Source of the DNA: Planctomycetota bacterium
GTDB lineage: Bacteria; Planctomycetota; UBA1135; GCA-002686595
Reading direction: 5' to 3'
NCBI GenBank assembly: GCA_004357655.1
Contig: SMVQ01000101.1
Span: 1 to 34,676 of the forward strand
Length of the DNA: 34,676 nucleotides
How positions within the stretch are numbered: the stretch's first letter is position 1; the number at the start of each line of letters is the position of its first letter. Both the position numbers and the translations under genes were made by a program. Positions 23,529-28,604 of the stretch are shown here, one piece after another. The notes under the pieces were generated by a model. It was not told the origin of the DNA, searched no databases, and saw only the letters and a list, made by a program, of their open reading frames with translations.

Positions 23529-24521
23529 TTGGCTGAAATCACGATTCCCCTCCGTTCCCACGACGAGGCCGCCCTCGTGCTGGGGCCCTACGACCGATTC
23601 GCGAAGCTCCTGCGTCAAGCTCTGGACGTCGAGCTCTCCACCCACAGCGGGAACCTGCGGCTGAAAGGCATCGAGGACGACATCCACGAGGCCCGACGGC
23701 GGATCGACCACCTGCTCGGCAAGTCCCGCAAGGGGCGCGAGCTCGGCGTGCGGGAGATCGAGAAGATCCTCCTCGACGGTCAGTCCAAGAGCGCGCGGGA
23801 GGCGAGCCAGGAGGCTGTGCTCGCCATGCGTTCCGGAGCGAAGCGCCCCGTCGCGCGCTTCCGGATCCGGCCCGTCGAACCGCGCAACGAGAACCAGCGG
23901 CGCTACCTCGACGTGATCGAGAAGCGACCGCTCGTGTTCGGGAACGGGGTCGCGGGGACCGGGAAGACGTACCTCGCCGTCTCGGCCGCGGTGCACATGC
24001 TCCGGTCGGGCGAAGTGCGACGGCTCGTCATCACGCGGCCGGTCGTCGAGGCCGGCGAACACCTCGGATTCCTGCCCGGAGATCTCCAGGCGAAGCTCAA
24101 TCCGTACATGCGGCCGATCTACGACGCGCTCCACGACCTCATCGAGCACGACGATCTCGTCCGCCTCGAGGAGGCGGGCGTGATCGAAGTCGCTCCGCTC
24201 GCCTACATGCGCGGCCGGACCCTGTCGAACGCGTTCGTGATCCTCGACGAAGCCCAGAACACGACCATCGGACAGATGAAGATGTTCCTGACGCGCATGG
24301 GTGAAGGCTCGCGCATGGTCGTGACGGGCGACCCGAGCCAGAACGATCTGCCCCCGAACACGCGGAGCGGTCTCCTGGATGCGGTGCAGCGGCTGCGCGG
24401 CTTCGAGGGTGTCGGGTTCGTCGAGTTCAACGCGAACGACGTCGTCAGGCATCCCCTCGTCGCACAGATCGTGCGCGCCTATCAGGCGCCTTCGCGCGTG
24501 AAGGAGGACGCGGCCGAGTGA
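23529..24521 (+). CDS. phoH: PhoH-family ATPase
   Basis: A 330-aa cytoplasmic PhoH-like protein of standard length. The start is TTG at 23529, with GGGAG 12 nt upstream; residues 1-60 (RSHDEAALVLGPYDRFAKLLRQAL) form the N-terminal domain seen in this family. The Walker A motif is G140-V-A-G-T-G-K-T147 and Walker B is VILDEAQN with D240-E241. TRPVVEAGEHLGFLPGDLQAKLNPYMRPIYDAL, YMRGRTLSNAFV and MVVTGDPSQNDLP are diagnostic. Its role is thought to be RNA-linked, as it is often next to ybeY. The gene overlaps the next one by 4 bp (GTGA), so coupling is likely. Confidence 0.95.
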   Translation: MAEITIPLRSHDEAALVLGPYDRFAKLLRQALDVELSTHSGNLRLKGIEDDIHEARRRIDHLLGKSRKGRELGVREIEKILLDGQSKSAREASQEAVLAMRSGAKRPVARFRIRPVEPRNENQRRYLDVIEKRPLVFGNGVAGTGKTYLAVSAAVHMLRSGEVRRLVITRPVVEAGEHLGFLPGDLQAKLNPYMRPIYDALHDLIEHDDLVRLEEAGVIEVAPLAYMRGRTLSNAFVILDEAQNTTIGQMKMFLTRMGEGSRMVVTGDPSQNDLPPNTRSGLLDAVQRLRGFEGVGFVEFNANDVVRHPLVAQIVRAYQAPSRVKEDAAE

Positions 24522-26110
24522 GCCTCCTGCAGCGCATCCGGGCGCGCGTCGAGGGACGCCATCACCTGCGGCGCTTCTCCCACGAGAAGGCGCGGGCGGT
24601 GGCCCGTGGCCAGCGCCGGGCGCCGATCCCGCAGTTGGGCGAGAAGCTCTGCATCGGTGCGGCGGCGGGCTTCCTCGGCGTCGGACTCCTCGGAGCGGGG
24701 GCGGCGGAGGGCGTCCGCCCGTGGCTCGCGCTCTTCGCGCTGGGGCTCATGCTCGTCACGGGCTTCGTACGCTACCTGGCGGACTTCCGCCGCCAGGCGC
24801 TCGGCTCGATCCGAAGGACCATCGGGCTCGCCACGGTCCTCCTGCTCCCGCTCGCGACGCTCGTCGCGTACGACCGGATCTGGGGCGTCGAGAGCCTCTC
24901 GCTCCTGCCCCTGTCCTTCATCGCCTTGATCCTGTCCCTCGCCTGGGGCCGCGCGCTGGCGATCGACTGCACGATGTTCTCGGGCGTGCTCCTGCTCCTC
25001 TACCTCGCCCTGAGATCGCGACTCGATGGGCCCAGTATCGAGGGGCTCGCGGTCGCGATCGGCGGCGCGCTCGTCGCTGCAATCGCGAGCGAAGAGGTCA
25101 AGCGCCGCAGCTCCCTGTTCCGGATCGGGCTCCTGATCGGCTTCTTCCAGGCCTTCCTCGCGGCGACGTTCCTGCTCATCGACCCCGCGGTCGTGCCCTC
25201 CACCCCGGACCTCGGCCCGCTCCTCATGGTCGGGGCCCAGGGCGTCGTCGTCGGGCTCCTCGTCTCCGGGCTCCTGCCCGCGATCGAAGCTCTCTTCGGA
25301 GTCACGACCGACATCAGTCTGCTCGAGCTGGGGAACACGCACGAGGCGCCCCTCCTGCGCAAGCTCCTGATCGAGGCGCCTGGGACGTTCCATCACTCCT
25401 ACGTCGTCGGTCTGATCTCGGAGGCCTCGGCGGAGGCCGTCGGGAGGAGCCCGCTCCTCGCGCGCGTCGGCGCGCTGTACCACGACATCGGCAAGCTGAA
25501 CAAAGCCGAGTACTTCGCGGAGAACTCGCCCGATGCGCGCGGTCGGCACAAGAATCTCGCGCCCGAGATGAGCATGCTGATCATCTCGTCCCACCCTCGC
25601 GACGGCGTCGAGCTCGGTCGGTTCTACGGCTTGCCGCAGGCGATCCTCGACTTCATGCCGGAGCACCACGGCACATCGCTGATCGAGTACTTCTACCATC
25701 GGGCCAAGGAACTTCGCGGCGATGAGAATGTCAGCGAGGAGAGCTTCCGTTATCCGGGACCGAAGCCACAGAGCGTCGAGACCGCGATCGTGATGATCGC
25801 GGACGCCGCCGAAGCGATCGCGCGTCAGATGCCCGACCCGAGCCAGGCGCGACTCAAGGAGATGGTGCACGAGGTCGCGCTGAAACGCCTCATGGACGGT
25901 CAGTTCGCCGAGTGTGGCATGACCTTGCGCGATCTCGACCTGATCGAAGCCGCCTGCGTGCGCGTGCTGTCGGCGATCCACCACACGCGTCCGACCTTTC
26001 CGAAGGGCAAGCCGCACCCCCTCGACCTCTCTCAACCGGGAGAGGAGCGCCGCGCCGTGCAGGACAAGGAGCGCGGAGAGCGCCGGCGTGTCGCCGGCGG
26101 TCGGATGTGA
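24518..26110 (+). CDS. PgpH/YqfF-type 7TM HD hydrolase
   Basis: A 530-aa membrane protein with a cytoplasmic HD phosphohydrolase domain. In Firmicutes, PgpH degrades c-di-AMP. About seven hydrophobic segments fill residues 40-260, then the HD domain: F-H292-H293-S, Y-H322-D323-I-G-K, ISSHPRDG and EHHGTSLIEYFYHRA, with the usual long helix set. The extracellular 7TMR-HDED domain that precedes the membrane part in PgpH is missing: membrane helices begin at about residue 40. The GTG start overlaps the phoH stop by 4 bp and has AAGGAGG 10 nt upstream. The gene ends with ATGTGA, overlapping ybeY. The substrate in this organism is an inference. Confidence 0.9.
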   Translation: MSLLQRIRARVEGRHHLRRFSHEKARAVARGQRRAPIPQLGEKLCIGAAAGFLGVGLLGAGAAEGVRPWLALFALGLMLVTGFVRYLADFRRQALGSIRRTIGLATVLLLPLATLVAYDRIWGVESLSLLPLSFIALILSLAWGRALAIDCTMFSGVLLLLYLALRSRLDGPSIEGLAVAIGGALVAAIASEEVKRRSSLFRIGLLIGFFQAFLAATFLLIDPAVVPSTPDLGPLLMVGAQGVVVGLLVSGLLPAIEALFGVTTDISLLELGNTHEAPLLRKLLIEAPGTFHHSYVVGLISEASAEAVGRSPLLARVGALYHDIGKLNKAEYFAENSPDARGRHKNLAPEMSMLIISSHPRDGVELGRFYGLPQAILDFMPEHHGTSLIEYFYHRAKELRGDENVSEESFRYPGPKPQSVETAIVMIADAAEAIARQMPDPSQARLKEMVHEVALKRLMDGQFAECGMTLRDLDLIEAACVRVLSAIHHTRPTFPKGKPHPLDLSQPGEERRAVQDKERGERRRVAGGRM

Positions 26111-26550
26111 CGACGCGCGTCACCTGGGACGTCGGACCGAGGCTCGTCACCGACGCCGAGGCGACTCGGGCGGTCGAGGCGGCGCTCGAGCACGGTGGGC
26201 GATCCGGGCTGGAAGTGGAGGTTCTGCTCGTCGCGGACGCCACGCTCACGGAGCTGCACGGTCGCTTCCTCGGCGATCCGACGCCCACCGACGTGATCAC
26301 CTTCGAGCTCGGCGGCGGCGGCGGGCCCGAAGCCGAGATCTACGTCAGCGTCGACTGCGCCCGCCGGGTCGCCGCGGAACGCGGGCTCGAGCCGGCCCGC
26401 GAGCTGGCGCTCTACCTCGTCCACGGCGCGTTGCACCTCTGCGGCTTCGACGACCACGGGGCCGAAGACCGGTCGGCCATGCGGGCGGCGGAGCGCGAGG
26501 TCCTCGAGCGCCTCGGGTACGCGCCGGACCCGACGTCCCACGACGCGTGA
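26107..26550 (+). CDS. ybeY: Endoribonuclease YbeY
   Basis: A 147-aa metalloprotein involved in 16S rRNA 3'-end maturation and ribosome quality control. The start is GTG at 26107, overlapping the previous stop by 4 bp (GTGA); the longer upstream frame is Arg-rich and runs over the HD gene. Motifs: EVEVLLVADATLTELHGRFLGDPTPTDVITFEL, then AEIYVSVDCARR and the metal motif HGALHLCGFDDHG. The third His is one residue further from the first pair than in the usual HGxxHLxGYDH. The phoH-HD hydrolase-ybeY order is a conserved cluster. Confidence 0.94.
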   Translation: MTTRVTWDVGPRLVTDAEATRAVEAALEHGGRSGLEVEVLLVADATLTELHGRFLGDPTPTDVITFELGGGGGPEAEIYVSVDCARRVAAERGLEPARELALYLVHGALHLCGFDDHGAEDRSAMRAAEREVLERLGYAPDPTSHDA

Positions 26551-26915
26551 TCGCGTCGCGGCTGCACCGCGCGCGCGTCGGATCGGCGGCAACCCCGAGC
26601 GCGCCGAGCGACGACAGCCGCGATTTAATTGAGAAAACTCAAAAAAAAAGTCGGCGCGGATCGTGACGCCGGTGCACACCGAATGATGCGAGTTTGCACG
26701 CCATTCGGCCAATGGAGCGGAAGTTCGCGCCGTGCAGCTCCCGAAGCGTGTGCTTCCTAGGCGCCTGGGAACGGAACGAACAGTTGATCCGGCCGTCCCG
26801 GAGGGAGTATCCAGACATCGTACGAGCAAGTCACGGCGATCGCACGGCGGGTTTGCGTGCATCGCGAGAGCGATCGGTGGCGGGCACCACGGTACTCGGC
26901 CACCGGGAGAGTTCC
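26551..26915 (+). other. Leader region of the sigma factor gene
   Basis: No gene is seen. An AT-rich island at 26624-26650 contains a small stem TTGAG-AAAA-CTCAA (26629-26642) leading into nine A residues (26641-26649). A second hairpin pairs CCGAATG (26679-26685) with CATTCGG (26702-26708). A possible but weak promoter is TTGATC, 17 bp, GTATCC near 26784-26812. In-frame ATG codons from 26694 would extend the sigma factor by 74 poor-quality residues and were not used. Confidence 0.4.
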
Positions 26916-27731
26916 TTGGACACCAAAGCAGAGACCGCCCCAAAGAACGGCCAGACCAAGGGTCGAGGCTGTGCCCGGAAGAGCGACGAGCTCGCACGGC
27001 TCTGGGCCTCCTACCGCAAGTGCCGCAACCACGCGACGCGCAACACGCTCGTCGAGGCGTATCAGTCGCTGGTCAAGGACGTCGTTCGGCGGTTCGCCGT
27101 GCGCCTCCCGCGCTCGGTCGACCGTGGCGACCTGGAGACCGCCGCCAACGTGGGCTTGATCTCCGCGGTGGAGGGCTTCGACCCCAATCGCGGCGTGCGC
27201 TTCGAGTCGTACTGCGAGCTGCGCGCCAAGGGCGCGCTCCTGGACGAGCTCCGGACCCAGGACTGGTTTCCGCGTCCGTGGCGCCACCGGATCGAACGGC
27301 AGAAGAGGACCTTCGAACGATTGCGGGGCGAGCTGGGACGCGATCCGCTGGACGACGAGGTGGCCGAATCCATGGCCATTCCGCTCGATCGGTACCAGTC
27401 CCTGTTCGGTACGGGGATGCCCACGGCGCCGGCGGGCTCGATGCGGACGGACGAAGGCGATGACGACCGTGCCCCGGCGCTCGATATCGTGCCGGATCCG
27501 CACTCCGAGGCTCCCGGCGAGAAGCTGACCCGCGAGGAGCTGCTCCAACTGGTCGCGCAGAAGCTCACCGAGCAGGAGTACCGGGTCGTGTACCTCAAGT
27601 ACTGGGAGGACCTCTCGATGAAGGACATCGGCGAGCTGGCGGGGCTCTCCGAATCGCGCGTGTGCAAGATCCACACGCGCCTGATCGAGCGGCTGCGGGA
27701 TCGTTTTCGCGTGGACGTCGCGGAAGACTGA
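26916..27731 (+). CDS. FliA/WhiG-family RNA polymerase sigma factor
   Basis: A 271-aa alternative sigma factor. The start is TTG at 26916 with GGGAG at 26905-26909 (6-nt spacer from GGAG), giving a normal length; the longer frame starts at 26694 with unlikely sequence. Region 2 lies at about residues 44-125: LVEAYQSLVKDVVRRFAVRL, DLETAANVGLISAVEGFDPNRGVRFESYC and RAKGALLDELRTQDWFPRPWR. The R-x-Q-D-W-x-P-R motif is typical of FliA/WhiG. Region 3 follows (ERLRGELGRDPLDDEVAESM), then region 4 at about 218-262 (LTEQEYRVVYLKYWEDLSMKDIGELAGLSESRVCKIH). It may direct flagellar or developmental genes; no targets are in the window. A convergent c-di-GMP riboswitch transcript faces it. Confidence 0.93.
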   Translation: MDTKAETAPKNGQTKGRGCARKSDELARLWASYRKCRNHATRNTLVEAYQSLVKDVVRRFAVRLPRSVDRGDLETAANVGLISAVEGFDPNRGVRFESYCELRAKGALLDELRTQDWFPRPWRHRIERQKRTFERLRGELGRDPLDDEVAESMAIPLDRYQSLFGTGMPTAPAGSMRTDEGDDDRAPALDIVPDPHSEAPGEKLTREELLQLVAQKLTEQEYRVVYLKYWEDLSMKDIGELAGLSESRVCKIHTRLIERLRDRFRVDVAED

Positions 27732-27758: not shown

Positions 27759-27792
27759 AAGAGAGCATGAGGGTGAACCCTCATGCTCTCTT
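27759..27792. terminator. Perfect 16-bp inverted repeat, likely bidirectional terminator
   Basis: AAGAGAGCATGAGGGT (27759-27774) is followed, after GA, by its exact reverse complement (27777-27792). As RNA it would form a 15-bp stem with a UGAA loop. It lies 27 bp after the sigma factor stop. On the minus strand the stem is followed by CTCGTTCTGG, slightly T-rich, and on the plus strand by GCCCGG. It probably ends both convergent transcripts. Confidence 0.8.
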
Positions 27793-28485
27793 GCCCGGTG
27801 ATGAGACACGCCGCGAGGCGAGCCTCACGATCGCGGTGTTTCAGCTAGGCCGAGACACCCCCCTGCGATCCAAGGATCCGAAGAGAACCCTACCGGGGGC
27901 GCAACGTCCGGGCTGTCCCCACAAGCCCATCGGCTGCGCGACTCCTCCACGCGAGGCTCGAAGACTCTGTCCCCACGGAGCTTCGAGCCCGATCGCCTCC
28001 TTCACCCGCGCGGGCTGGAGGTCCCCACCCCAACTCGCCGCGCAGTCTCGCCGAGCCTCGAAGGCGCGGCGATTCCTGAATTCATCTCCACCGGGGGACG
28101 GGTTCCCTGCGTTCCCGTCCCCGCTCTGCTTCTGCCGTTCCCGGTCGCTGACATCACGTGCGGCGCACTCGCGTCGCACGTCATAGGGGCGAACGCCATT
28201 CGTGGCGGGACGGAGATGGACCCGCGGGGCGCCGACCGTACGGGTGGTCGGCCGCTCTCTGTCGGGGTGACTCCACATGTCCGTCTTCACTCTTTGATCC
28301 TTGGCGTTCGCTCGGGAGTGCCCGCGCCTTGGATGAGGTGCCCGCCCCAGCCCGGCACGAAGGCCGGGCTGAGGCGCGCGGGGGAGGAAGAGCAATGGTG
28401 TCTTCCGACCCGGAGTCTCAAACCGAGGCGGGAAGGAATTCCCGTCTGCCCCTCGGATGACACCCTGGATCGGATCGACGACGTT
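27793..28485 (-). ncRNA. Candidate structured noncoding RNA behind c-di-GMP aptamer
   Basis: About 690 nt on the minus strand between the aptamer and the shared terminator. It reads as RNA rather than protein. In order: nested stems GGTGTC/GACACC (28464-28459 with 28402-28397), CCGAGG/CCTCGG inside it, and CGGGAA-TTCC-TTCCCG innermost; AGCCCGGC-loop-GCCGGGCT (28370-28349); GCCGACC/GGTCGGC (28252-28231); ACGTGCG/CGCACGT (28181-28156); GGGGACGGG/CCCGTCCCC (28122-28094); TCGCCGCGC/GCGCGGCGA (28072-28035); GGCTCGAAG/CTTCGAGCC (27989-27955). Three loops carry TGGGGAC. A 184-codon open frame (28395 to 27841) crosses the region but lacks hydrophobic core pattern and known motifs. It could still be a divergent gene. 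Confidence 0.45.
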
Positions 28486-28560
28486 CGGTAGCCCGGCTGC
28501 CCGCTAGGGGCCCGTGGCTTTGCGCCCCAGCCTTGCGGCTGGTTTGCCCTTGTCGCGCCA
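28484..28560 (-). promoter_or_regulatory. Cyclic di-GMP-I (GEMM-I) riboswitch aptamer
   Basis: Read on the minus strand, the conserved blocks occur in the right order: AGGGCAAACC (28550-28541), a P2 hairpin CCAGCC-GCAA-GGCTGG with a GNRA tetraloop (28542-28527), GCGCAAAGCC (28525-28516), ACGGG (28515-28511), a P3 helix GCCC/GGGC with loop CTAGC (28511-28499), AGCCGGG (28498-28492) and CTACCG (28491-28486). These match the GEMM-I consensus GGCAAACC, GNRA, GACGCAAAGCC, ACGGG, AGCCGGG, TTACCG nearly base for base. AGGGC keeps G where, from memory, cGAMP-selective variants have A. It lies directly after a candidate promoter, and no recognisable gene follows. Confidence 0.9.
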
Positions 28561-28575
28561 TCTTCGGAGCGTTGG

Positions 28576-28604
28576 ACAGTACCTTGGAAATTGCAATTGA
28601 GCAA
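28576..28604 (-). promoter_or_regulatory. Candidate sigma70-type promoter of the riboswitch RNA
   Basis: On the minus strand TTGCTC (28604-28599) and TACTGT (28581-28576) are separated by exactly 17 bp. Transcription would begin near 28569, about ten bases before the aptamer. The spacer contains a perfect 10-bp palindrome AATTGCAATT (28598-28589), which stands out in this GC-rich DNA and could be an operator. Confidence 0.55.

Follow-up and report, generated by a model that had tools for sequence, protein, structure and literature searches.

A c-di-GMP-I riboswitch aptamer at the head of a conserved, predicted non-coding RNA in a planctomycete family

We analysed a stretch of 34,676 nucleotides of DNA from a Planctomycetota bacterium of a group that has been little studied (hereafter the window). 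In it a c-di-GMP sensor heads a conserved non-coding RNA, which suggests a structured RNA, and no gene, as the target of the signal. As far as sequence can tell, the aptamer is probably the 5' domain of a c-di-GMP-gated non-coding RNA that acts in trans. Sequence comparison shows the aptamer, its promoter, the non-coding nature of what follows, the structure of the core, conservation throughout a family and the independent disappearance of the aptamer from copies that keep the RNA. A sigma-70-type promoter (28604-28576) would start a minus-strand transcript of roughly 0.8 kb, with start, end and length all predicted, that would comprise the c-di-GMP-I aptamer, a conserved structured region with a core of U-GGGG-A hairpins and an end at the hairpin 27791-27759.

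Results

The aptamer carries the putative ligand-contacting bases of ordinary c-di-GMP-I riboswitches

With cmscan, the aptamer was matched end to end at 28557-28483 (minus strand) by Rfam family RF03167 (c-di-GMP-I-GGC) with 69.8 bits (E 1e-14; gathering score 59), and the plain c-di-GMP-I family, RF01051, also scored above its cut-off of 35 at the same position (65.5 bits). It is the sole copy found in this genome. The preliminary description had recognised a GEMM-I aptamer and named RF01051 as the model for checking it; both scores bear out the class, although the top-scoring family is RF03167. Of the span that it had given, 28484-28604, the part 28604-28558 is promoter and leader, and the aptamer itself starts at 28557.

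In Vc2 numbering, G20 and C92 of such aptamers contact the ligand and A47 intercalates. The segments GGCAAACC, GCAAAG and ACCGA are all present in the window, and their G, A and C columns were invariant among 26 aligned sequences; we take these three bases to be G20, A47 and C92, which make up the c-di-GMP set. At the place where the window and its relatives read GCAAAG, the consensus of RF03167 has GCGAAG; a G at the A47 position is thus absent from the window and its relatives despite the higher RF03167 score. As we read the family name, that G is the mark of the c-di-GMP-I-GGC variant; by this base, an A in the window, the aptamer falls with ordinary c-di-GMP-I. Judged from its sequence, the aptamer has the putative ligand contacts of ordinary c-di-GMP-I and is in itself an unexceptional representative of an established riboswitch class.

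A conserved promoter and a candidate switch in the leader

The promoter (28576-28604, minus strand) consists of TTGCTC (28604-28599), a 17-nt spacer and TACTGT (28581-28576). A generic sigma-70 scan did not call it at 28604-28576, but 38 of 40 homologous loci carry the pattern TTGNNN-N16/18-TANNNT about equally far from the aptamer, which supports the earlier proposal that the aptamer has a promoter of its own. Relatives without the aptamer keep the promoter as well. Many relatives, not all, also share an element within the spacer (TTGCAATTTC, 28596-28587, minus strand; TTGC(A/G)ATTTC), which occurs in some aptamer-less copies too and is possibly a regulator site.

Between promoter and aptamer, the leader GCUCC...GAUGGC (28557-28570, minus strand) is a candidate switching element that can form two mutually exclusive helices, its alternative pairing partners lying in a conserved segment after the aptamer (GUCGUCG...GUCAUCCGAGGGGC, 28448-28482, minus strand). 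The leader sequence GAUGGC/GAUGAC pairs either with GUCGUC (28482-28477), directly after the aptamer, or with GUCAUC (28461-28456) plus GGGGC, about 20-30 nt further on. Both helices are kept in the alignment, each with 97% of cells paired. The covariation behind them is weak because the segments hardly vary; the one clear compensatory class, U-A to C-G, falls in the second (GUCAUC) helix. No terminator with a U tract was found directly after the aptamer. Ligand binding might shift the leader from one helix to the other and so alter the amount, length or folding of the RNA; it could act by Rho-dependent termination, through the stability of the RNA or through the way the core folds.

The region downstream of the aptamer lacks coding signal

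Members of the window's family have a gap of about 600-1,000 nt after the aptamer, with one case of 1,400 nt, and beyond it a convergent sigma factor gene of the FliA/WhiG type. Two window ORFs downstream of the aptamer were searched against Pfam and gave no match. Open frames of the gap were alike in sense, antisense and shuffled sequence (192, 182 and 165 codons), GC content by codon position was flat (0.73/0.62/0.70, vs 0.69/0.48/0.85 in the sigma gene), and translated similarity between relatives was hardly greater in sense (35 of 780 pairs) than in antisense (29 of 780). The possibility that the 690-nt gap hides an unrecognised protein gene with the aptamer as its leader could draw on the long stop-free frames present there, but such frames are expected at high GC; with sense, antisense and shuffled frames similar, codon-position GC flat and no conservation at the protein level, we rule out a coding gap and regard this reading as extremely improbable. 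The earlier statement that no recognisable protein follows thus holds, in the two ORFs and across the relatives. The aptamer is nevertheless no orphan; it is better described as the 5' domain of a predicted transcription unit of about 0.8 kb that continues into a conserved non-coding RNA and its terminator.

Searched against Rfam 15, the window and 20 related loci matched at gathering score only in the aptamer; downstream there were weak matches below threshold, so that another known Rfam RNA in the gap was ruled out.

The downstream RNA forms a conserved series of GGGG-tipped hairpins

An alignment of 27 genera revealed conserved blocks (GCGAACGCC...GGCGUUCGCC, repeated GUGGGGAC, and GGAGGA) and, in most members, a terminator hairpin with a U tract. 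The motif TGGGGA was strongly strand-biased, with 124 sense and 10 antisense occurrences in 30 kb of gap region from 40 loci, vs 1 sense and 9 antisense in 26 kb of flank. A stem of at least 5 pairs carried it in 77% of its occurrences, vs 26% with shuffled flanks. Successive motifs were often 48-55 nt apart. GGAGGA showed a sense excess as well (47 vs 11 over the same number of loci). The core thus consists of successive hairpins, spaced by about 50 nt and joined by GGAGGA linkers, each with a GGGG loop closed by U-A at its tip. In the core alignment (A3), 85.6% of cells were paired (59% when shuffled, 35-45% when slid), two-sided changes occurred in 11 of 12 modelled pairs, and the covariation score was 0.70, slid versions reaching at most 0.25. 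The 823-nt RNA of the window folded with z = -7.4 against 20 shuffles.

In the window, all of these elements lie on the minus strand. Following the aptamer and its post-aptamer segment, a strong GC-rich hairpin without a U tract (CAGCCCGGC-CUUCGU-GCCGGGCUG, 28348-28371) occupies a position where many relatives also have hairpins, and a long-range pairing (28188-28311) joins the arms GCGAACGCC (28311-28303) and GGCGUUCGCC (28197-28188), as it does in many aptamer-bearing members. GGGG-tipped hairpin A (28014-28034) precedes the conserved core (27893-27999), which is made of hairpins tipped GUGGGGAC with a GGAGGA linker; the covariance model of the core, R1, matched here with 74.3 bits (E 1e-13), its only match in the genome, the window copy being among the model's own sequences. 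Within the core, hairpin B (GGGCUCGAAGCUCCGUGGGGACAGAGUCUUCGAGCC, 27955-27990) and hairpin C (GGGCUUGUGGGGACAGCCC, 27910-27928) are joined by the GGAGGA linker (27943-27948). A 3' stem, GGAUCGC...GCGAUC (27829-27871), recurs in relatives, and the RNA would end at a terminator hairpin (27759-27791), which in relatives is mostly a long hairpin with a U tract and in the window has a weak T tail.

The RNA is found throughout one planctomycete family

The R1 model, built from the 108-nt core, was run on 37 genomes of the family and 24 of other families. It found exactly one locus in each of 28 of the 37 and none in the 24; in a class-wide sample, all 52 core-matching genomes belonged to the same family, 24 of them newly seen. 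These counts are minima, since the model misses true members (G009, G010, G014, G036 and the aptamer-less G012 and G035). At five loci (L075, L081, L102, L112 and L113), the sigma gene is kept with neither aptamer nor hairpin RNA beside it.

Relatives were reached by way of the neighbouring sigma factor. All are Planctomycetota, and most are metagenome assemblies, but two complete genomes, Poly30 and Pla163, are among them; Poly30 we take to be Saltatorellus ferox, a planctomycete species. Shape-changing members of the group have been described (PMC11032199). The aptamer-headed RNA appears to be undescribed in Rfam and in the papers searched, which cover part of the literature.

The aptamer appears to have been lost several times while the RNA was retained

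The aptamer is present in 29 of the 37 family genomes. It was absent, even at a permissive Rfam threshold, from five genomes (G005, G012, G019, G021, G035) and two further loci (L092, L109), and all seven aptamer-less loci keep the promoter, the hairpin core and the terminator. According to a quickly built tree of 54 sigma proteins, in which many forks are open, the aptamer state among RNA-bearing loci changed at least four times, two of these changes being forced by well-supported branches; the direction of change follows from taking presence, the majority state, as ancestral. Read in this way, the sequences show that the aptamer was lost independently from copies that went on to keep the RNA. 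Since promoter, core and terminator outlast the aptamer in several lineages, the RNA is the constant part, and its function would not require the aptamer.

Two causes of these losses were considered and set aside. Loss of c-di-GMP signalling was ruled out, as GGDEF proteins remain, and loss of flagella does not fit either, since G005 and G021 lack FlhA but G019, G012 and G035 have it.

Discussion

What the RNA may do

Identical hairpins in several copies, with loops that stay invariant and stems that vary and covary, typify RNAs whose task is to offer binding sites. We infer that the RNA acts in trans and offers repeated identical sites to a partner, for which the candidates are an RNA-binding protein (as for CsrB and RsmZ, but other than CsrA) or C-rich target RNAs. 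CsrB and RsmZ are sponge RNAs made of repeated hairpins with GGA in loops and linkers, and CsrA is the usual reader of GGA-rich hairpins. The RNA described here has repeated GGA-bearing hairpins, in the same layout, and a sponge of CsrA itself would be the obvious analogy; CsrA (PF02599) was, however, detected in only 1 of 61 genomes, not that of the window, by a search that picks up its controls from E. coli, B. subtilis and T. maritima. This largely refutes the CsrA sponge, unless a diverged CsrA-like protein exists, and we consider it very improbable. The lone match (L071, G032:C7:13638-13778, 78.7 bits; the other 60 sampled genomes lack CsrA) is a possible horizontal gain. A more specific form of the trans-acting reading, which we put forward tentatively and would not yet bet on, is that the family-wide RNA of the Saltatorellus group is a CsrB analogue without CsrA, whose GGGG-tetraloop hairpins titrate an RNA-binding protein and whose 5'-fused c-di-GMP aptamer, in most species, sets its activity. 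If so, the second messenger would exert a global effect by way of a sponge RNA, with no adjacent gene as its target.

The same exposed, invariant loop, repeated several times per RNA, would also suit a multi-site antisense RNA that uses its GGGG loops to base-pair with target mRNAs at C-rich sites close to their start codons. We think this rather unlikely: pairing alone would not obviously demand a constant spacing of about 50 nt, and TCCCC was only sporadic upstream of the other FliA/WhiG sigma genes that were read, so that no consistent complementary sites emerged there. Control in cis, in which transcription from the riboswitch promoter, or its read-through, interferes with the convergent sigma gene (26694-27731) or acts antisense to it, draws on the genomic setting, for the core matches examined adjoin this same sigma gene more constantly than they do the upstream genes, and others have suggested an antisense action for c-di-GMP-I riboswitches (PMC9943018). 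But the RNA would end at a hairpin (27791-27759) short of the sigma stop codon, interference needs no covarying hairpins with an invariant loop, and the linkage may partly be inherited gene order; control in cis is in our view unlikely, while the constant neighbour may still point to a role connected with that sigma factor. The merRNA of Bdellovibrio bacteriovorus, a 445-nt c-di-GMP riboswitch RNA without an ORF, has been proposed to store c-di-GMP (PMC3627812). A reservoir of this kind, holding c-di-GMP through the aptamer with the rest as scaffold, shares the outline of an aptamer inside a non-coding RNA with no ORF downstream; a store, however, needs the aptamer and not the core, and the lineages that lost the aptamer yet kept promoter, hairpin core and terminator show the opposite pattern of conservation, which leaves the store model a poor fit and, to us, an improbable one.

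Relation to known riboswitch-controlled RNAs

Whereas merRNA was not found outside Bdellovibrio, the RNA of the window extends across a planctomycete family; unlike in merRNA, the non-aptamer core is its conserved part and the aptamer is evolutionarily dispensable. Comparison with CsrB and RsmZ shows a different loop (U-GGGG-A), an attached aptamer and a host group in which CsrA is missing from 60 of 61 genomes. Rli55 and EutX are small RNAs, controlled by a cobalamin riboswitch, that sequester the ANTAR regulator EutV. They resemble our proposal in that a riboswitch controls a non-coding RNA that binds a regulator, but differ in ligand, host phylum and hairpin motif. In Clostridioides difficile, a c-di-GMP-II aptamer stands in tandem with a group I ribozyme; there too c-di-GMP acts on a large structured RNA, but the window has no Rfam group I intron match and its output would be non-coding, not an mRNA. 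By analogy, the RNA of the window would work most like the riboswitch-controlled non-coding RNAs (Rli55/EutX, merRNA), although by the features tested it belongs to none of them.

Few descriptions exist of riboswitches in control of a non-coding RNA, and the known c-di-GMP example, merRNA, was found in a single genus. Here, a conserved structured RNA absent from Rfam occurs in dozens of species in natural versions with and without the aptamer, a contrast that makes directly testable how a second messenger can be coupled to a trans-acting RNA. Two of the relatives that carry the RNA, Poly30 and Pla163, are in culture and have complete genomes, and the repeated identical loops could serve as bait for the partner. 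Shape change and unusual cell division are known from the group, and c-di-GMP-dependent control of lifestyle would be of interest there.

The convergent sigma factor and related loci

The constant neighbour of the RNA is a FliA/WhiG-like sigma factor gene (26694-27731, plus strand), whose true start is probably downstream of the first TTG. It closes a series of plus-strand genes (23529-27731) comprising phoH, a gene for a 7TM-HD (HDIG) membrane protein and then the sigma gene; a 192-aa ORF before the sigma gene gave no Pfam match. Genomes of the family carry at least three FliA/WhiG-like paralogues (in the genome of the window, on contigs G000:C324 and G000:C210 and at 26694-27731): one is high-scoring, one lies near flhA in many genomes, and one, diverged and below the NCBIfam cut-off, is convergent with the RNA.

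In other families of the same order, c-di-GMP-I aptamers lie in sense, at most a few hundred nucleotides upstream of a FliA/WhiG-type sigma gene (L049, L055, L057, L064 and L066-L070; genomes G049, G058, G042, G056, G052, G055, G041, G045 and G046). Simple inheritance of this riboswitch-before-FliA arrangement was rejected as the origin of the window's locus, because the FliA/WhiG gene in those families and the convergent one are apparently distinct paralogues; the sense loci represent a conventional arrangement.
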